From a virus, in the IMG/VR virus record IMGVR_UViG_3300033388_005029, positions 1-23,723 of that record: DNA of 23,723 bases; one strand, written 5' to 3'. Positions 5,842-21,677 of the stretch are shown one piece after another (within the stretch, counting starts at the first letter, position 1; the number at the start of each line of letters is the position of its first letter). A program made the position numbers and the translations under genes. The notes under the pieces were generated by a model that did not search any database, was not told the DNA's origin, and worked only from the letters and a program-made list of their open reading frames with translations.

Positions 5842-5927
5842 GGAGAGTTGCCTGAATGGTTAAAGGAACGGTTTGCTAAATCGTCAGGGTTAAACCTGTA
5901 TGAGTTCGAGTCTCATACTCTCCTCCA
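5842..5927 (+). tRNA. tRNA-Ser(GCU)
   Basis: This is an 86-nt class II tRNA. The acceptor GGAGAGT pairs perfectly with ACTCTCC. The anticodon arm is ACGGT-TTGCTAA-ATCGT with anticodon GCT (5873-5875). It has a long variable arm CAGG-GTTAAA-CCTG, a T-arm ATGAG-TTCGAGT-CTCAT and an encoded CCA. It reads AGC/AGU serine codons. The discriminator base is T (5924), whereas bacterial tRNA-Ser usually has G. It is embedded in the accessory segment between two structural or moron genes, as phage tRNAs often are. Confidence 0.93.
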
Positions 5928-10563: not shown

Positions 10564-11199
10564 ATGGCAGTTTTAGAAGAAGGTAAACATTCAGCAGAAT
10601 GTTTTGTAAGTGAAGCAAATGGTGGCAGATCGAGAGAAGCTGCTAAATTAGCATCAGGTAATGATTTGGAAGCTTGTGCGGTTTTAGGTCAAGTAACTTC
10701 TGCTTCAGATGTGACAGCAGATGGTGGCAATGTTGGTGACGGTACGTCAAGTGCTTGTACTCTCGGAACACAAGCTATTAACGGTACTTATACTTTAACG
10801 TGTACAGCAGAAACAGGAGATGCAGGAACTTTTAGTGTTGTTGCACCAAATGGTGAGATTTTAGCAGAATTAACAGTTGGTGTTGCATATGTTAGCTCTC
10901 ACATTAACCTTACTATCTCTGATGGTTCGGAAGATTTTGATATCGGTGACATTTTTACTGTTGACGCTATTTTTGGTGAATACGCTATTTTTGACCCAGC
11001 AGCTTCAGATGGTACTCAGACTGCAAAAGCAGTTCTTAGAACAGGTGTTGATGCTTCAACTGCGGAACAAAACTGTGTTGTATGGGTTAGAGACTGTGAG
11101 CTTAGAGCTTCAGACTTAGGTTGGATATCAGGTATTACTGAAGTTCAAAAAAGAACAGCAATAGCATCGTTAGCTACTGTTGGAATAATTTTAAGATAA
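10564..11199 (+). CDS. Head decoration protein, lambda gpD family, with inserted beta domain
   Basis: This encodes 211 aa, about twice lambda gpD (110 aa). Residues 1-47 (FVSEANGGRSREAAKLASG, LEACAVLGQVT) and about 138-211 (FDPAASDGTQTAKAVL, the C-terminal ASLATVGIILR) are the two halves of a gpD-type trimeric capsid-stabilising protein. Between them, about 52-136, sits an inserted beta-sandwich-like segment (GTYTLTCTAETGDAGTFSVV ... INLTISDGSEDFDIGDIFTV). Similar segments occur inside other phage decoration proteins. AAAGGAG at the end of the protease gene is the ribosome-binding site, and the ATG directly follows its stop. High expression alongside the capsid gene is expected. Confidence 0.88.
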   Translation: MAVLEEGKHSAECFVSEANGGRSREAAKLASGNDLEACAVLGQVTSASDVTADGGNVGDGTSSACTLGTQAINGTYTLTCTAETGDAGTFSVVAPNGEILAELTVGVAYVSSHINLTISDGSEDFDIGDIFTVDAIFGEYAIFDPAASDGTQTAKAVLRTGVDASTAEQNCVVWVRDCELRASDLGWISGITEVQKRTAIASLATVGIILR

Positions 11200-11209
11200 G
11201 GAGCTAGAA

Positions 11210-12241
11210 ATGGCAACAATGGACATATTTGGACAAGATGCTTTTAGTATGGTCACTTTAACTGATGCAGTTAAAGAAATAGACTATAAACCCTCTCTAT
11301 TGAGAGATATGAATTTGTTTGAGAAGCAACCTTCAAGAACAAAAACAATTATGCTGGAAAAAAAGGGTGATACACTCGCATTAATTCCAGTTTCTGAGAG
11401 AGGCGCACCTCTTGACCAAGCAACAAAAGATAAAAGAGACATTAGACATGTTGACACATCTAGACTTGCTAAACAAGACGTTATCACTGCTGATGAGATT
11501 CAAAACATTAGAGCATTTGGAACTGAATCTGAATTAAAACAAGTTCAAGCAGAAGTTGCAGAAAGAATAATGTCTCTTGAAGATGATTTAGAATTAACTG
11601 AAGAGAATATGATGCTAGGTGCTGTTCAGGGTATCGTTGTAGATGCAGATGGCTCAACGGTTCTTCATAACTGGTTTGACTTCTGGGGTGTTACACAGCC
11701 TGTTGAAGTAGATTGGGATTTAGATAACGGTTCTCCTGCTCAAGGTGTTTTAGTTAAAAAGTGTAAAGCTACAATTAGAACAATGCAGAAAGCTGGTAAA
11801 GGTGTATTTACTCCTGCAACAGAAGTTATTGGTATTTGTGGAGATGCTTTTTATGATGACCTTGTAGCTCACAAAGAGGTTCAGGGCAACACGATTACAC
11901 CACAAGAAGCCGAAAGATTATCAAATGAGTTTGGTAACGCTTATGGTGCGATTAGATTTGGTAAAATTACTTGGATTAACTACAGAGGAACTGATGATGA
12001 TTCAACTGTTGCTGTTGGTGATGATAAAGTTAAATTCTTTCCAAGAAATGCAAAAGGTGTGTTTAAACATGCTCTAGCTCCTGCTGAATTTATGCCATAT
12101 GTAAATCAACCTGGTAAAGAGAGATATGCTATGACTCTTCCTGACTTAAAAAGAGCAGCTTTTGTAGAAGTAGAGCTATATTCATATCCACTCATGTATT
12201 GTACTCGTCCTGCAATGTTACTAAGAGGTAAAAGAACTTAA
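11210..12241 (+). CDS. Major capsid protein, lambda gpE family
   Basis: This 343-aa protein has the length of lambda gpE (341 aa) and HK97-fold features: an N-terminal arm (residues 1-50), an E-loop region around GDTLALIPVSERGAPLD (about 55-71), a long spine helix with SELKQVQAEVAERIMSLEDDLELTEE (about 106-131), and a C-terminal P/A-domain ending LPDLKRAAFVEVELYSYPLMYCTRPAMLL. It forms the icosahedral shell. AAGGAG at 11199-11204 (overlapping the gpD stop) is a strong ribosome-binding site. A hairpin overlaps its stop codon and may limit read-through into the downstream genes. Confidence 0.9.
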   Translation: MATMDIFGQDAFSMVTLTDAVKEIDYKPSLLRDMNLFEKQPSRTKTIMLEKKGDTLALIPVSERGAPLDQATKDKRDIRHVDTSRLAKQDVITADEIQNIRAFGTESELKQVQAEVAERIMSLEDDLELTEENMMLGAVQGIVVDADGSTVLHNWFDFWGVTQPVEVDWDLDNGSPAQGVLVKKCKATIRTMQKAGKGVFTPATEVIGICGDAFYDDLVAHKEVQGNTITPQEAERLSNEFGNAYGAIRFGKITWINYRGTDDDSTVAVGDDKVKFFPRNAKGVFKHALAPAEFMPYVNQPGKERYAMTLPDLKRAAFVEVELYSYPLMYCTRPAMLLRGKRT

Positions 12242-12268: not shown

Positions 12269-12583
12269 ATGAATAAAAAAGTAAAAGTATTAGTAAGTTC
12301 GTTGGATTCAAATGGAGACTATCTAAAAGCAGGTACATATCCAGAAGTTGATGATAAAACTTATAAAAAACTAAAAGCTTTAAAAAACATAAGAGATTAT
12401 GATGAAAAGCTTGATGGTGAAGTGGATACAGAAACTGACAATAGTGAGCTGCAGGAAAAAGTAACTGCTCTTGAAGAAGACAAAGTTGCTCTTGATGAAA
12501 AAGTAACTGCTCTTGAAGAAGACAAAGTTGCTCTTGATGAAAAAGTAACTGCTCTTGAAGAAGACAAATTGATGAAAAAGTAA
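12269..12583 (+). CDS. Coiled-coil-repeat protein in the FI position, truncated by a frameshift
   Basis: As read, this encodes 104 aa. Residues 1-50 form a small N-terminal domain (KVKVLVSSLDSNGDYLKAG.YPEVDD); after that come tandem 14-residue units EKVTALEEDKVALD, a heptad-type coiled coil. In the third unit 7 nt are missing, so the frame runs into TAA at 12581 (ending DKLMKK). Restoring the 7 nt would give one 173-aa protein ending at 12783. AGGAG at 12258-12262 is the ribosome-binding site. Position between capsid and the FII-like gene equals lambda FI, a packaging accessory protein, but similarity in sequence is not evident. Confidence 0.7.
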   Translation: MNKKVKVLVSSLDSNGDYLKAGTYPEVDDKTYKKLKALKNIRDYDEKLDGEVDTETDNSELQEKVTALEEDKVALDEKVTALEEDKVALDEKVTALEEDKLMKK

Positions 12584-14475: not shown

Positions 14476-15666
14476 ATGGCAGCACCAGAAGAAAACACGA
14501 TATATAGAGGAAAGAAAATCCTCATAGGAAAGATGTCAGATTTAAACACATCGACATGGATAGCTACAGCAGCTTTGGATATTTCAAAGTTTGTAACAGC
14601 ATTTACAGCGAATACTAAACCTCAGAAAGAGACAGTTGAGCTGATAAATAATGATGGTCAACAAGCATCAGACATCACAGGGTCAACTAAGTTTGACGGG
14701 AATTTAGACCTTAACTTAGCAACAGGTCTTTTAATGCCACTTATTAGTGCTGTTTATGGTGGAGGAACACAAGTGCCACTAGCACCTGCCGTTTGGGTTA
14801 CTGCAACAGTGACTCAGGTTGGAGATATAGTAGAACACTCAGGAGGTAAATTTCTTGTAGCACAACAAGTGTTAGGTGATGCAACAACAGGTGCAGTAGA
14901 ACCAACAGTAGGTGCTGAACTAGACTATGACAATTTAGCTATAGATGGTACAGATGCTTCAAATGGTGTAATCTGGAAACTTAGAGATAATCTGTATAAC
15001 TCTCCTGACCACAAAACAGGTTTCTGTACGGACAAACTCTTTATCATTGAGAGAGTAAGTGAAGGCTGTGGTAGTGCAAATGTTTTTGATACTATTTCAT
15101 TAAACGTAGAGCTTACATATTTCACGATTGAAAAATCAGATGGTGCAATCTCTCAGAAACAATCTATTCCTTGGTTGTCAACAAAAACTTATAGATCAAG
15201 TGATGCAGACTTTGAAGACATTACGGTTACTTTAGAGACATCTCCAAGAGATTTAACTTACAATGCGGATGATGTAACTGTAAGAGTTGATGGTGACAAA
15301 TATGGTACAGTTCATAACTTTAAACTTCCATATACTCGTCAAGTAACAAATGTTGATAGTGTTGAACCTAAAGAGCAAATCATTAAAGTAAATGCTCCTC
15401 AGTTTAGTGGTGATATCACTATTGAACTTGATCCTGCTGAATACACAGCAGTTCTTGCTTCAGTTAAAAAAGAAATCACAATTGATTTTGATAAAGGTGA
15501 CGGTGAAAAAGCATTGTTTACTTATCCATCAGTAACTTTTGATGAGCCAGAAGTTCAGACAACTGGTAATGAACCTAGATTGTTGATGATTATCCTGAAA
15601 CCAACAGGTGATGCAGCAACATCAATGGGAACAGTAGATATAACAACAGCTACTTTGTGGGCTTAA
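14476..15666 (+). CDS. Major tail tube protein, gpV-like, with inserted module
   Basis: This 396-aa protein has the tube-protein pattern: an N-terminal part with ILIGKMSDLNTSTWIA and KETVELINNDGQQASDITG (about 15-70), and a C-terminal beta-rich region ending SVTFDEPEVQTTGNEPRLLM. At about 103-170 lies a separate module (VWVTATVTQVGDIVEHSGGKF ... IDGTDASNGVIWKL) of the kind placed in phage tail and fibre proteins as a surface, possibly carbohydrate-binding, domain. Hexamers stack around the tape measure to make the tube. AAGGA is 6 nt before ATG 14476. It is longer than lambda gpV (246 aa), partly because of the insert. Confidence 0.85.
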   Translation: MAAPEENTIYRGKKILIGKMSDLNTSTWIATAALDISKFVTAFTANTKPQKETVELINNDGQQASDITGSTKFDGNLDLNLATGLLMPLISAVYGGGTQVPLAPAVWVTATVTQVGDIVEHSGGKFLVAQQVLGDATTGAVEPTVGAELDYDNLAIDGTDASNGVIWKLRDNLYNSPDHKTGFCTDKLFIIERVSEGCGSANVFDTISLNVELTYFTIEKSDGAISQKQSIPWLSTKTYRSSDADFEDITVTLETSPRDLTYNADDVTVRVDGDKYGTVHNFKLPYTRQVTNVDSVEPKEQIIKVNAPQFSGDITIELDPAEYTAVLASVKKEITIDFDKGDGEKALFTYPSVTFDEPEVQTTGNEPRLLMIILKPTGDAATSMGTVDITTATLWA

Positions 15667-15670
15667 AGAT

Positions 15671-15689
15671 TCTCCTCTTTTTGAGGAGA
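15671..15689 (+). terminator. Hairpin after the tail tube gene
   Basis: A perfect 7-bp stem TCTCCTC / GAGGAGA closes a TTTTT loop, 5 nt after the stop. No T-run follows, so it is a weak terminator or 3'-end stabiliser. Confidence 0.45.
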
Positions 15690-15695
15690 TTCCGC

Positions 15696-15701
15696 TATAA
15701 T
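15696..15701 (+). promoter_or_regulatory. -10 promoter element before the chaperone genes
   Basis: TATAAT lies just after the tube-gene hairpin and starts a leader of about 125 nt before the G-like ATG. There is no clear -35. Confidence 0.45.
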
Positions 15702-15706
15702 ATCAA

Positions 15707-15788
15707 CAAGCTTTTTTTTCAGTGCAGTTTGTGTCAAGCTTCTGCACTGCAAAAAGGGCTTAGTAATCTGAGTTTAAAAAGCTTGACA
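15707..15788 (+). promoter_or_regulatory. Structured leader with competing pairings upstream of G
   Basis: A hairpin CAGTGCAG (15720-15727) / CTGCACTG (15742-15749), extendable by flanking T and A runs, has the loop TTTGTGTCAAGCTT. Its loop 15732-15741 (TGTCAAGCTT) is perfectly complementary to 15779-15788 (AAGCTTGACA). Segment 15776-15785 (AAAAAGCTTG) is also perfectly complementary to 15707-15716. These last two pairings exclude each other. A 5'-UTR switch controlling G expression is inference. Confidence 0.5.
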
Positions 15789-15831
15789 ACTTCAAAAACT
15801 CCCCTTAAAAAAAACGTCAAAAGGACACCTT

Positions 15832-16593
15832 ATGTCAAAAGAGTTATTAAAAAACATCGAGTCTCATCTTCAGGATGAAAAAAGCAAGATAGCAATTTCA
15901 AACATAGTAGCAGTTCTTGATGCAAAAAGAGACGCAGTTCTTCCAAAAGTTTTAGAAGAGATACTTGAAAAAGTAAAAAATAATCCTCTTGCTGAAAAAG
16001 AAATCAAGAAAAAACAAGATGAAATCCAAGAGATGATGCTTCAAGGGGAGCTAGAAGGAGATGAGCCTGCTATAGAGTTGCTTGATGCAGTTTCAACGCC
16101 AGAAGAGTTAGGTAAGTTGCATGAAGCTGGGATAACTTTAGCAGAGTTTGTAAAGCTAGGTACTGAGATAAATATTAAAGTCTTTTCTCATAAGTATCTT
16201 GATGAAAATGAAAACTATGTTTTTAAAGAACCACCTTCTCATAAAGAGATGAAAGTGTTGAGTTTTCATGAAAGTAAAGAGGTTAGAAAACAAGGTAAAA
16301 AAGTAAGAGCCGAGGCAAATAAAGTCATATTAAAATACCAAGAAGCAAGATCAATAAGTGAAAATGGTAAAACAGATGCTGATGCAGCAACTGAAAAAAT
16401 AAAATCATTAACCCAAGAGATAAAAGAGATGCAAGAAGACACAAAATCAGTTTCTGAAGCTCTAAACGAGATGGCTTTAAAATATAGTGGTCTTGATAAA
16501 AACTCCATGACAGAGTGGGAGCAAAATCTAGCTATCTCAAAAGTTATAGCAATGGCAGAAGGAAGCTATACTCCACCTATGGGAAAGAGCTAA
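15832..16593 (+). CDS. Tail assembly chaperone, gpG-like
   Basis: This encodes 253 aa, almost all helical and charged, in the position of lambda G between the tube and tape measure genes. A long coiled-coil stretch runs from about 165 to 220. G coats the tape measure during tail assembly and is absent from the virion. Near its 3' end, at 16581-16587, is GGGAAAG in phase G GGA AAG, just before the TAA, allowing a -1 shift into the T frame. AAAAGGA precedes ATG 15832. Lambda G is 140 aa; this one is longer. The frameshift signal makes the call firm despite low sequence similarity. Confidence 0.82.
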   Translation: MSKELLKNIESHLQDEKSKIAISNIVAVLDAKRDAVLPKVLEEILEKVKNNPLAEKEIKKKQDEIQEMMLQGELEGDEPAIELLDAVSTPEELGKLHEAGITLAEFVKLGTEINIKVFSHKYLDENENYVFKEPPSHKEMKVLSFHESKEVRKQGKKVRAEANKVILKYQEARSISENGKTDADAATEKIKSLTQEIKEMQEDTKSVSEALNEMALKYSGLDKNSMTEWEQNLAISKVIAMAEGSYTPPMGKS

Positions 16594-16955
16594 CCTCTTT
16601 AATCGAATGGCATTTTAGTGAAAAGCGACAAAAGGCTATAAGTAGAATATCAAGCGACAGAAAAAGAGGCGTTCCAATAAATAATGGATACTATGAAAAG
16701 AGACCCACTATTATAGAGGGTCTTAAATCTCCACCTCATTCCGAAGAAGTTAATGAAATATACGGCTTTATAACTGACAATCATTTCTACACCATAAATA
16801 GAGGTGTTGGAATGGGTATAGATGTCTCAATAGCTCCTGACATGTTAAAGCTATGCCAAAGAGGAGACAGAAAAGGTATAGATGCAGATAGATATGAAGA
16901 CTTCTTTTTTGATTTTGTAAGAAGACAAAATGAACTAGAGCAAAAAAAAGACTAG
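15832..16955 (+). CDS. GT fusion tail chaperone made by -1 frameshifting
   Basis: Ribosomes slipping -1 on GGGAAAG (16581-16587) would read on as GKELTSLIEWHFSEKRQK and continue to TAG 16953-16955. The product is about 374 aa: 252 residues shared with G and 122 of T. In lambda a few percent of ribosomes do this, and GT recruits tube subunits to the G-coated tape measure. The heptamer is identical to lambda's and in correct phase. Frequency here is unknown. Confidence 0.8.
16581..16587 (+). promoter_or_regulatory. -1 ribosomal frameshift site GGGAAAG
   Basis: The heptamer is read G GGA AAG in the G frame, the X XXY YYZ form. It is the same sequence used in lambda G/T and lies 3 nt before the G stop codon. 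Confidence 0.88.
16587..16955 (+). CDS. T reading frame (C-terminal part of GT)
   Basis: This is the 122-aa open frame entered by the frameshift. The frame is open upstream to 16515, where only a GTG without a useful ribosome-binding site exists, so independent translation is unlikely. The sequence includes a basic helix (SEKRQKAISRISSDRKRG) and an aromatic/acidic C-terminus (YEDFFFDFVRRQNELEQ). T-type domains contact the tail tube protein. Confidence 0.75.
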   Translation, partial: ELTSLIEWHFSEKRQKAISRISSDRKRGVPINNGYYEKRPTIIEGLKSPPHSEEVNEIYGFITDNHFYTINRGVGMGIDVSIAPDMLKLCQRGDRKGIDADRYEDFFFDFVRRQNELEQKKD

Positions 16956-16970
16956 CTATTTTTGCTAGTC
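16950..16970. terminator. Hairpin overlapping the T stop codon
   Basis: A perfect 7-bp stem GACTAGC / GCTAGTC has the loop TATTTTT and includes the TAG stop. It is preceded by eight A, so on the minus strand it is a hairpin followed by T8, a good intrinsic terminator in that direction. On the + strand it lacks a T-run. Confidence 0.5.
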
Positions 16971-16996
16971 CATACCACAATAAATAGAAAAAATCA

Positions 16997-17033
16997 TTGA
17001 CATACATCAACAAGCGTATAATTTAGATATAAT
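16997..17033 (+). promoter_or_regulatory. Promoter region before the tape measure gene
   Basis: TTGACA at 16997-17002 and two -10 boxes follow: TATAAT 17017-17022 (14-bp spacer, short) and GATATAAT 17026-17033 (25-bp gap, too long). The second matches the other boxes in the window and is 30 bp before the ATG. It is the likelier -10, acting without the -35. Confidence 0.5.
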
Positions 17034-17063
17034 TGTACAATCATAAAAGCTTCAAGGATTGAT

Positions 17064-20000
17064 ATGTCTTTCTCAACAGAACTAAAAACAGTAATGAAGC
17101 TAGACGACGATCAATGGAAAAAGTCTCTCAAATCAATAAAACAAGCCGAAAAAGAAACCACAAAAGATATTGAAAAAAATACCCTAAAAATATTTAATCT
17201 AAAAGAGAAGCTAGAGAATAAAGAAAAACAACTTCATTTGGCTAAAATCTTCCAAAATAAAGAAAACCAAAAACGATTCAGAGAAGATGCGAAGTTAATA
17301 AGAAGCGAAATAGCTCTCATCAATAAAAGAAATAATGCTCAAAAAGCAGGTTTAGAATTTGTAAAAATCAGAAAACATAACACAGAAGCCTTTCGAAAAG
17401 GAATAGGTAAAGAGACTGATGCTATAAATAAAAACAATAAAGCAACAGGAAACGCAACAAACAATTTAGTAAGGCACCTAAGACAACTAGAAACGCTAGT
17501 AGTAGTATACTTTGCTCTGACAAGAGGTTTTCAAGCTACTATAGGTATGGGTCTTCAAGTAAACAAAATGATAGAAGATAACACTTCTGGTATCGCAGCA
17601 CTACTATCTGCAAATACACAGATGGTTCTATCAAATGGTCAAGTTGTAGATAGCTATGAAAAGTTTAGAATAGGTCAAAAAGTAGCAGCAGAAACAATGC
17701 TAGAACTTAAAAAGGCTTCAGTATCCACTTTCGCAACATTTCCACAGTTGACCGAGCTATTTCAGCAATCAATCGGTCATACATTAGGCATGGGAAAAGC
17801 TTTCGGCACAACAACAGATGAGATTATAAAAAATACAATCAAACTAACTCAAAGCATTTCTAATATCGCAGGAAGCATCGGAATGGAAATGCGTAAAGCC
17901 CAAGAAGAGATCAGATCTCTTCTTTCAGGGAATGTCTCTACGGATTCTCTAATCGCAGTTTTACTATTTGGTTCACCAACTAAAGCAAATGAAGCTATGA
18001 GAGCAGCTAAAAAAAGAGGAGAAAATGGTGTTAAAAACATGCTCGACAATATGCTCGAAGCATTTGAGCCTCTAAAAGACACCGAAACATATACAAGGTC
18101 ACTACTAAAACTTGAAGATGCTTGGTCATCAACAATGCAACAACTATCAAAACCAATATTTGACGACTTAAAAACAGTCTTTTCGGAATTAGCAAAAGAC
18201 ATAAGTGACAACAAAGATGAAATAACAAATAGTTTTGAAGAAGTATATGATGTAGCTAAAGAAACTATAGGAGCTTTAGGAAATGTTTTTGAAGATGCCG
18301 AAAATGCTTTTGCTTCGCTAGAAGTAGTGGCAGAAGGACTTAAACATACAGTAGTTGGAACAGTGATAGTAACAAAAGCGATGCTAGGCGCACTATCAAA
18401 CGGATTTAAGACTATAGAGCTATCAGCAATAGGATGGGCAACACTCTATAAAAAAATATCAATGAGTGATAGTGAATATGCAGCATATCTCGCAAAAGCT
18501 AAAGGAAGATACAACTCTCTAATCAGAGAAGTAAAAACATTTGATGAATTAATAGCAAGTGGTATAGAAGCTGGACAAACAATGAGAGACATGTTTGATT
18601 CATCAGGCAAAACAGTAGAGATGGATGTGAAAAGCTTAAACTCCCAATTAACACAAACAAGAGCTATTCTAAAACAACTAGAAGCAAGTGGAGCAGAAGA
18701 GAGTCAAATTGAAAGATTTGCGAAACATTTAAAACTACTAGAAGGAAAACTAGTTACAAAATTAGCAATAGACTTCAACCATATTGCAAAGAGAATAAAA
18801 GAGAATAACAAAGGATTAGAAGAGACACAAAAACTCCAAGCTTTAATAATAAAAGATATAGAGCAGAGAAAAAAACTAGAAGAGAAGTTAAATATCGGAG
18901 GATTAAACGCCAATCAAATTGCAGCAACAAGAGAACAACTTTCTCAACTGTCAATCGCAACAGAAAACGATAAAGCAAAAATAGCTGAGATAAATCAAAA
19001 AGCAGCTATGAAAGACTTAGAAATAAGTCAAGCACTCTGGGTATCAGAACAAGGTCTTATTGGTGTTGAGGTTAAAAAGTCTACTCTAATAGGCTTTAAA
19101 ATTGTTGCAAAAGAAAAAGAAGTTGCTTTAGCTGAAAAAGGCAATGAAAAATCAAAAAAGCAAACTGAATTAAATAATTTAATCCTTCAACAAAATCAAG
19201 CTCTCACATCAGAGAAAGAAAAACAAAACAAACTAGATGAGAAGTTTATATTAGACCCTATAACACTAGATATAAGAATGAAAGGATTTGATGAGGTTTC
19301 AAATGCTATAGCTGGTATAGGTAATGGTATGCAAGATTTGCAACATATAAATGTTGAATATCAAAAAGACCTTATTAAAATAGGAAAGACTTCTCTAAAG
19401 GGAGCGAAATTAGAAAAAGCCAGAAGTGATGCAGCATTTAAAAGTGCAACCGCAACAGTAGGTGGCTTTGCAAATATGACGGGTGCGTTAGCTGGATTTT
19501 ATGATGAAGATGATGACAGAAGAGAAAAGCAATTAGTTTTAGCCCAAGTATTCCAAGCAGCACAGATGGCTATGCAGGTTGCACAGATGGTTCAGTCTAC
19601 GGCTTTCACTTCATTATTTGTAGCACAAGAAGCAGTGAAGGCACAAGCAGCAGGAGCAACAGCAGTGGCAGTAGCAGCACAATCTTCACCGTGGACAGGT
19701 TTTGCTACAGCAGCAGCAATGATAGCCCTCCTTGGCTCGATAGGAATAGCATTAGGTGGTTCAGGTGGTGGAGCATCACAAGAAAATCAATTTGATATAA
19801 GAAGAGAAGAAATAGAAAATCAGTATACTCCTATAACAGACAGATTAGATAGACAGATTAGTCTATTAGAAAGTATTGACTTAACAGGTAGTGTTGGTGT
19901 TGTAAGTATTGAAAAAGCATTAATAGAGTTTAAAAAAGTTGGCGAATTAACTATTGTTGATTTTAGAGAATCATTAATTAATAGTAGAAGAAATGTTTTC

Positions 20001-21677
20001 TTGCCGAAAAACACACCAGGGATAGAGAGTGAAGTTTTTAAAGGTCAGCAATCAGCTGAAATTTTTGCAAAAACTTTGGAAAAAGAGTTGCAGAGTTTGT
20101 TCGGAAAAGATTTTATTGCAGATTCTTTTATTGATCCAGAGGCTGGGGTTGATATTATTGGTGAAGTTGGAGGTTTTAAGGTAATTACAAAACTTGATAT
20201 TCCAGAAATCACATCATCTTTAGAAAACACATTATTATTTTTGACAAGAATTAAAGATTCAACTATTGATTTTTCAGGAGCAATAAGTGAAGGCGATATT
20301 GATGATATTTTATTCAATATCCAAGGGTCTATAACGGATTTTGCTCTATCACTTACAGATGTTGTGGGCGAAATGTCAAGTGCATCAGAATCGTTTAGAA
20401 GTATTTTTGATGATATCACAGGAAGTACAAAGTTTGCAGATCAAGAACTAAGACAAGCTTTTGCAGATTTTGACAGTATTCGAGGTCAAACTCCCTATGT
20501 TGATTATTTATCTGCCCAAATCAACGCAATAACAAAAGTAGAGCAAAATTTCAATAAAAATATTCAAGAGATATTATTATCAACGGATATAGACGATATT
20601 CTTGCTCAAACTGATGCGGTAATAGCACTTCAAGAAGCTACAAATTTTGCTTTTGAAGGTGGAGTAAAAGATGCTTTAAACTATTTAGACAGCATTGAAT
20701 TAGTAGGCGAAGCTATGACCACTTCAGTAGAAAACCGAAAAGAATACTTAGACAGCTTTAAATCAGAAGAACAACTTCTAGCAGATTTGGCTCAAACGAT
20801 AGGAGTAGATGTAGCGAACAATTTAGTAGAACTAGATTTGATGTTTGAAACACTGTCAAATGACATATTCGGATTAACAGATGCAGAGTTTGAATTAATA
20901 ATGGCAAATAAAGACTATCTTGTTTCTATAGGTGAAATAGAAGATTCTATTACATCTATGATAGATTCATTAAGAAGTTTTAGAGATTCGATGCTGTCCA
21001 CCTCAGAGATGTTACAAAAAACTATAGATGGATTAAGAGAAGGAGATCTAACAGAAGAAGATTTATTGACTTCATATAAAACACAGTTTAATGCTTTGGC
21101 AGCAGAGATAGATACTTTTACAGATTCTTCTGGAAATTTATTGCCACAGTTTCAAGATGATTTTACAGAAGCAGCGAATAGTTTGAGTGAAATATCTAAA
21201 AACATAGTAGATTCTCAGATATTAACAGAAGCAGAAAAAGAAAATCTAACATCTTCTATAATAGGTGAACTTGAAGCAGTAAAACAAATAGCAGACCTCA
21301 CAGAACAAACTTTATCCGTATTTGTGGTAAATAAAGAGCTAACAGTGACTTCGGCAACTTCTTTGACAGATTATATTGCAGACCAAGGTATAGAACCTGC
21401 AAACAATCTAAATAGTTTTGCAGTAGGTAGCCCTTTTATTCCAAGAGACCAAGTTGCAAACATACATAGAGGTGAAATAATTATAGATTCTCAAAGCGCT
21501 AGTATATTGAGAAACTATGGAATACCGACAAATTCAGGAGACGTTAGAGAGCAAATTGTGCTTTTAAAGCAAATTTTAGATAAACTAACAGCAATAGAAA
21601 TAACCAGCACAACAACAGCTGACTCTACAGAGTCAATGGATCAAACTGGTATCGAACTAAGAGAGGAAAGCGCATAA
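17064..21677 (+). CDS. Tail tape measure protein, gpH-like
   Basis: This 1537-aa protein is the largest gene of the window, in the tape measure slot after G/GT. Residues 1-130 are coiled coil. A hydrophobic stretch (LETLVVVYFALTRGFQATIGMG, about 140-165) is followed by the usual helical repeats. A long Ala/Gln helix and membrane-type segment (AAAMIALLGSIGIALGG, about 880-905) ends in a Gly run. The C-terminus has FAVGSPFIPRDQVANIHRGE (about 1450-1470), the motif near the end of many tape measures. It sets tail length and helps DNA entry. At about 0.15 nm per residue it predicts a tail near 230 nm. AAGGA is 5 nt before ATG 17064. Confidence 0.92.
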   Translation: MSFSTELKTVMKLDDDQWKKSLKSIKQAEKETTKDIEKNTLKIFNLKEKLENKEKQLHLAKIFQNKENQKRFREDAKLIRSEIALINKRNNAQKAGLEFVKIRKHNTEAFRKGIGKETDAINKNNKATGNATNNLVRHLRQLETLVVVYFALTRGFQATIGMGLQVNKMIEDNTSGIAALLSANTQMVLSNGQVVDSYEKFRIGQKVAAETMLELKKASVSTFATFPQLTELFQQSIGHTLGMGKAFGTTTDEIIKNTIKLTQSISNIAGSIGMEMRKAQEEIRSLLSGNVSTDSLIAVLLFGSPTKANEAMRAAKKRGENGVKNMLDNMLEAFEPLKDTETYTRSLLKLEDAWSSTMQQLSKPIFDDLKTVFSELAKDISDNKDEITNSFEEVYDVAKETIGALGNVFEDAENAFASLEVVAEGLKHTVVGTVIVTKAMLGALSNGFKTIELSAIGWATLYKKISMSDSEYAAYLAKAKGRYNSLIREVKTFDELIASGIEAGQTMRDMFDSSGKTVEMDVKSLNSQLTQTRAILKQLEASGAEESQIERFAKHLKLLEGKLVTKLAIDFNHIAKRIKENNKGLEETQKLQALIIKDIEQRKKLEEKLNIGGLNANQIAATREQLSQLSIATENDKAKIAEINQKAAMKDLEISQALWVSEQGLIGVEVKKSTLIGFKIVAKEKEVALAEKGNEKSKKQTELNNLILQQNQALTSEKEKQNKLDEKFILDPITLDIRMKGFDEVSNAIAGIGNGMQDLQHINVEYQKDLIKIGKTSLKGAKLEKARSDAAFKSATATVGGFANMTGALAGFYDEDDDRREKQLVLAQVFQAAQMAMQVAQMVQSTAFTSLFVAQEAVKAQAAGATAVAVAAQSSPWTGFATAAAMIALLGSIGIALGGSGGGASQENQFDIRREEIENQYTPITDRLDRQISLLESIDLTGSVGVVSIEKALIEFKKVGELTIVDFRESLINSRRNVFLPKNTPGIESEVFKGQQSAEIFAKTLEKELQSLFGKDFIADSFIDPEAGVDIIGEVGGFKVITKLDIPEITSSLENTLLFLTRIKDSTIDFSGAISEGDIDDILFNIQGSITDFALSLTDVVGEMSSASESFRSIFDDITGSTKFADQELRQAFADFDSIRGQTPYVDYLSAQINAITKVEQNFNKNIQEILLSTDIDDILAQTDAVIALQEATNFAFEGGVKDALNYLDSIELVGEAMTTSVENRKEYLDSFKSEEQLLADLAQTIGVDVANNLVELDLMFETLSNDIFGLTDAEFELIMANKDYLVSIGEIEDSITSMIDSLRSFRDSMLSTSEMLQKTIDGLREGDLTEEDLLTSYKTQFNALAAEIDTFTDSSGNLLPQFQDDFTEAANSLSEISKNIVDSQILTEAEKENLTSSIIGELEAVKQIADLTEQTLSVFVVNKELTVTSATSLTDYIADQGIEPANNLNSFAVGSPFIPRDQVANIHRGEIIIDSQSASILRNYGIPTNSGDVREQIVLLKQILDKLTAIEITSTTTADSTESMDQTGIELREESA

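Follow-up and report, generated by a model that had tools for sequence, protein, structure and literature searches.

A predicted lambda-type programmed -1 frameshift between tail chaperone genes of a phage likely to infect Campylobacterota

The tail gene cluster

The window analyzed here is the whole of IMG/VR record IMGVR_UViG_3300033388_005029 (23,723 bases). Its head and tail genes follow a lambda-like order of terminase (GpA family), portal, protease, decoration protein, capsid E, small head-tail genes, V-like protein, G, T and tape measure, and two overlapping frames separate the gene of the major tail protein from that of the tape measure (Table 1). The 3' end of the G open reading frame (ORF) reads CCT ATG GGA AAG AGC TAA, a single codon (AGC, 3 nt) separating the heptamer from the stop. 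From 16587, the -1 frame reads ELTSLIEWHF and runs for 122 codons to a stop at 16953-16955. Direct reading of the sequence thus bears out the first-pass annotation, which had noted an in-phase GGGAAAG 3 nt before the stop and a -1 frame of this length; translation likewise gives the peptide it had proposed across the joint of the predicted G-T protein, GKELTSLIEWH. A lysine sits exactly at this joint (PPMGK, followed by ELTSLIEWHFSEK), so trypsin would be expected to cleave there. GGGAAAG occurs once in the window, and dinucleotide shuffles give an expectation of 2.5 per window. The mere presence of the heptamer is therefore not significant, and the finding rests on its placement.

Table 1. 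Coordinates of tail chaperone features and neighboring genes in the window.
Feature	Position	Strand	Basis
Major tail protein (V-like), proposed T partner	14476-15666	+	Position, plus similarity to the proteins at the V position in L012 (E 5e-7) and in L013 (E 0.009)
G-like gene, predicted tail assembly chaperone, zero-frame product 253 aa	15832-16593	+	ORF; between V-like gene and tape measure gene, as in L012 and L013
Slippery heptamer GGGAAAG	16581-16587	+	Read G GGA AAG, in phase with the G ORF
T-like extension, 122 codons in the -1 frame; predicted G-T fusion of 374 aa	16587-16955	+	Relatives have homologous -1 extensions
Zero-frame stop TAA of G	16591-16593	+	Sequence reading
Possible stimulatory stem-loop (tentative)	16594-16669	+	7-bp basal stem CCUCUUU/AAAGAGG, 6 nt past heptamer
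Tape measure protein, 1537 aa, proposed G partner	17064-21677	+	tblastn matches to proteins annotated as tape measure in Thiohalocapsa and Nitratiruptor phages; E 1.5e-112 to L012

Conservation of the frameshift site

With the tape measure gene as query, we recovered Thiohalocapsa phage LS06-2018-MD03 (OP947165, here L012; host label as deposited) and the Nitratiruptor siphoviruses NrS-4 and NrS-5 (LC545445, here L013, and LC545446); the terminase query retrieved all of these phages too. A profile built from a conserved stretch of the tape measure protein matched 13 viral contigs, plus a single contig from a Campylobacterota genome. Used as direct queries, G and T gave no match in viral contigs or phages, and V and the tape measure as single queries gave none in viral contigs. 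The resulting set of 16 loci comprised the window, L012, L013 and the profile matches, near duplicates L015 and L016 being counted once (15 non-redundant relatives).

We defined a site as an in-phase X_XXY_YYZ heptamer no more than 60 nt from the stop, whose -1 frame stays open for 60 codons or more. All 16 genes at the G position carry one; among the 277 other forward ORFs of these loci, 4 do. Within the 2.5 kb preceding the tape measure gene, every locus shows a single in-phase heptamer followed by an open -1 frame, and the same scan across 272 kb, on both strands, returned few further matches. Absence of the heptamer from close relatives had been named beforehand as an outcome that would count against a frameshift. 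Site and open extension are retained throughout, and the exact letters vary: GGGAAAG in the window, L012, L015, L017, L019, L020 and L022; GGGAAAC in L014, L021, L024, L025 and L027; AAAAAAC in L018 and L026; AAAAAAG in L013; and AAAAAAA in L023.

These data bear on two alternatives to ribosomal frameshifting. One original ORF might have been split by sequencing error or gene decay, a reading for which nothing speaks except the frame change itself; it is refuted by recurrence of the same change in the 15 non-redundant relatives, from different samples and each time at a slippery heptamer, and in the 15 additional genome loci described below, leaving it a negligible probability. The frames might instead be joined by transcriptional slippage, and runs of 7-8 A at the site in several relatives (AAAAAAG, AAAAAAA) are places where polymerase could slip. 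However, the homopolymer runs in GGGAAAG and GGGAAAC, found in the window and many relatives, are too short for slippage, and every site obeys X_XXY_YYZ in phase, making this explanation highly improbable.

To extend the comparison, 397 genomes of the same class were searched; 28 contained tape measure relatives, and 20 such loci were examined. The frameshift layout was present in 15 of these more distant Campylobacterota loci, with GGGAAAG in L054, CCCAAAG in L066 and AAAAAAG or AAAAAAC in the others. The remaining five (L050, L056, L059, L062 and L065) have a related tape measure and no in-phase X_XXY_YYZ site by our definition; they may use another motif or gene order, or may not shift, and we counted them against the frameshift interpretation. 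At 19 of the 31 sites, the zero-frame stop immediately follows the heptamer. The stops comprise 16 TAG, 15 TAA and no TGA, against a background of 15% TAG and 27% TGA. Most of this seeming bias is accounted for by the constraint of an overlapping coding frame (42% TAG and 18% TGA expected); absence of TGA against the 18% expectation gives P of about 0.002, uncorrected for relatedness.

Relatives were also found with the capsid gene. In those examined, the window's G, T, V and tape measure genes have no counterpart, and the corresponding junction in Cy-LDV1 is not of this type. The window is mosaic in this respect: its capsid (10564-12241) is nearest to cyanophage and other contigs (49-55%) with unrelated tails, and its tail genes (14476-21677) are nearest to L012 and L013, whose capsid shows no detectable relation.

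The T and G products

Following the T frame from its last upstream stop to the heptamer, we found no start codon in 30 of the 31 loci. Only the window has any, a single in-frame GTG at 16515 that lies 66 nt before the heptamer and is unsupported. T could in principle be a separate gene, initiated at this GTG or by reinitiation after the G stop, with the heptamer a coincidence. No comparable upstream start exists in the other loci, the first start past the heptamer in the window is at codon 76 of 122, well after the W-F segment conserved at the N terminus, and a chance heptamer would not recur in every member of the 16-locus set; independent initiation is therefore very unlikely. Lacking a suitable start of its own, full-length T most likely depends on the frameshift.

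The -1 extensions are homologous even where the heptamers have changed. Joined G-T of the window matches that of L012 (E 1e-9), and L012 matches NrS-4 (E 6e-7). When only T was compared, the scores of window-L012 and L012-NrS-4 were never reached in 1000 shuffles; by the same measure, window-NrS-4 taken alone was not significant. The extension of L012 (SLVRDWHF...FNFIIDN) resembles that of the window (SLIEWHF...YGFITDN). Among known families, T of NrS-4 matches DUF1799 (PF08809) above the cut-off and Phage_TAC_18 (PF23812) weakly, and T of L024 and L025 matches the lambda family Phage_tail_T (PF06223) weakly, below the cut-off. Window T has no direct Pfam match, these three families included. 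Its profile matches that of the NrS-4-type T (probability 96%, E 4e-9), which suggests a grouping with the DUF1799/TAC_18-like extensions; against lambda-type T, no homology was detected (probability 0.1%). Judged from these family matches, the T half occurs in different types within a single tape measure clade while the frameshift stays. AlphaFold predicted a confident, mostly helical fold for window T (pLDDT 90), for which a structure search yielded no match in PDB or viral libraries.

Aligned G proteins of 11 loci share the C-terminal motif LD..(L/M)T.WE. Window G matched no Pfam or PHROG family of known function, its profile showed no homology to lambda G (probability 0.1%) and did not align with that of NrS-4-type G, and a structure search with its model (pLDDT 82) returned no match. 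The first-pass annotation had seen the decoding of lambda tail chaperones in a phage with strongly diverged proteins: two predicted chaperone halves in the lambda layout are supported, and homology of window G or T to its lambda counterpart is undetectable by profiles.

Heptamer identity and downstream RNA

The heptamer turns over within the clade (GGGAAAG, GGGAAAC, AAAAAAC, AAAAAAG and AAAAAAA), and one of the more distant loci has CCCAAAG. In Escherichia coli, both G_GGA_AAG and C_CCA_AAG are highly prone to shifting (PMC5009743). Heptamers ending in AAC have been reported to be far less shifty there than those ending in AAG, and 14 of the 31 sites end in AAC (GGGAAAC or AAAAAAC in L014, L018, L021, L024-L027, L055, L057, L058, L060, L061, L063 and L064). 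Lack of queuosine as the cause of such sites fails in its simple form, as all 61 Campylobacterota genomes tested carry tgt. As a group, phages of Campylobacterota might employ a broader range of heptamers than E. coli allows and exchange the T half for another type while keeping the frameshift, with host ribosomes, tRNAs or downstream RNA structure making AAC sites work; we regard this generalization as possible but doubtful.

RNA past the 31 sites is more folded than control coding positions of the same loci (mean z -1.96 versus -0.40, P 1.5e-6), a difference seen again with 70 and 110 nt. A helix of at least 5 bp starting 4-10 nt past the heptamer occurs at 16 of 31 sites versus 40 of 153 controls (P 0.006). 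Both P values are optimistic, since the sites are related by descent. In the window, a stem of 7 bp after a 6-nt spacer appears when 110 nt are folded (z about -3); folding 60 nt does not reveal it, and the nearest relative, L015, does not share it. A stimulatory stem downstream of the window heptamer is a plausible prediction.

Interpretation and comparison with known systems

Collectively, the comparative data very probably reflect a programmed -1 ribosomal frameshift like that of lambda G/GT, giving tail assembly chaperones G and G-T. This reading is favored by the in-phase placement of the heptamer one codon before the stop, by the open -1 frame and its recurrence in near and distant loci, by homologous extensions behind altered heptamers, and by the near-universal absence of a T start. 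Family matches of relatives' T proteins (DUF1799, and more weakly Phage_TAC_18 and Phage_tail_T), the V-G-T-tape measure order shared with lambda, and the shift-prone nature of G_GGA_AAG in E. coli point the same way. Against it, alongside the distant loci that have no site, we counted the missing family matches and lambda homology of window G and T.

Most ribosomes would terminate at the TAA at 16591 to produce G. A minority, probably a few percent, with tRNA-Gly on GGA and tRNA-Lys on AAG, would slip back one base to GGG AAA, bypass the G stop and complete G-T. A downstream stem-loop may increase the rate of shifting. By analogy with lambda, G would coat the tape measure protein, and G-T would additionally hold the major tail protein, allowing the tail tube to polymerize around the ruler.

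Lambda and the window share the in-phase heptamer GGGAAAG, as well as gene order, and their -1 extensions are of similar length (144 aa in lambda, 122 in the window). They differ in the length of G (140 versus 253 aa) and in the distance from heptamer to stop (five codons versus one), and their G and T sequences show no detectable homology. Conservation of the tail chaperone frameshift across long-tailed phages despite low protein similarity is already established (PMC5009743). The first-pass annotation had gone further in proposing deep conservation of lambda decoding. A lambda-style -1 shift joining two chaperone halves is indeed kept among relatives; unbroken inheritance of the exact heptamer from lambda is too strong a claim, as the event and its place are conserved and the letters and proteins are not.

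NrS-4 and NrS-5 share with the window a homologous T, portal, terminase and tape measure. Their in-phase heptamer, of the same site type, lies directly before the G stop with different letters, A AAA AAG (in NrS-4, TCT AAA AAA AAG TAA, the -1 frame continuing YLEWQFDK). Their G is much shorter (83 aa) and has no detectable homology to that of the window. T is annotated as a separate gene, with the non-standard start ATA in LC545445 (L013:12811-13080); the frameshift is unannotated, and the paper describing these phages makes no mention of frameshifting (PMC9723563). The Thiohalocapsa phage has GGGAAAG as well, abutting the G stop: its gene between V and tape measure ends GTG GGA AAG TAG. Its G-T is homologous to that of the window, whereas its capsid is not detectably related. 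It is annotated as two genes, the T part (L012:7554-7829) being labeled 'globin-like protein'. Haloarchaeal viruses HCTV-1, -2 and -5 are also among the closest known systems, and differ by their archaeal hosts.

The mechanism is the known one of lambda, to which the window adds a new, previously unannotated example. It supplies a well-supported case of tail chaperone frameshifting for phages of Campylobacterota and exposes public records (NrS-4, Thiohalocapsa phage) in which the G and T genes are split or misnamed. Across the compared loci, the recoding event and its position are conserved, whereas the exact heptamer, protein sequences and T type vary.

Host and other genes of the window

A host of a phylum distant from that of lambda had been suggested, and the relatives agree in pointing to another phylum, as they are Nitratiruptor siphoviruses and loci in Campylobacterota genomes. 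NrS-4 and NrS-5 infect Nitratiruptor, a genus of Campylobacterota (PMC9723563). L027 lies in a Campylobacterota genome bin, its conserved tape measure stretch 60% identical, and L049 sits in a 1.84-Mb contig of the same class. The rows nearest to the window in a tape measure tree are L015, L014, L017 and L027; L032 and L034 were read on the wrong strand in this tree, which we therefore used for near neighbors of the window only. From the Nitratiruptor host, the genome bin, the long contig and the nearest tree rows, a Campylobacterota host for the window is likely.

Several other genes drew our attention. The gene behind the capsid (12269-12583) encodes a product with several copies of a tandem repeat (EDKVALDEKVTAL), probably a coiled coil. 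A tRNA-Ser(gct) gene lies amid structural genes at 5842-5927. A small protein encoded at 1204-1644, flanked by the terminase small-subunit region and the gene for the large terminase, contains the motif FLDVDGVLN and by eye is HAD phosphatase-like.
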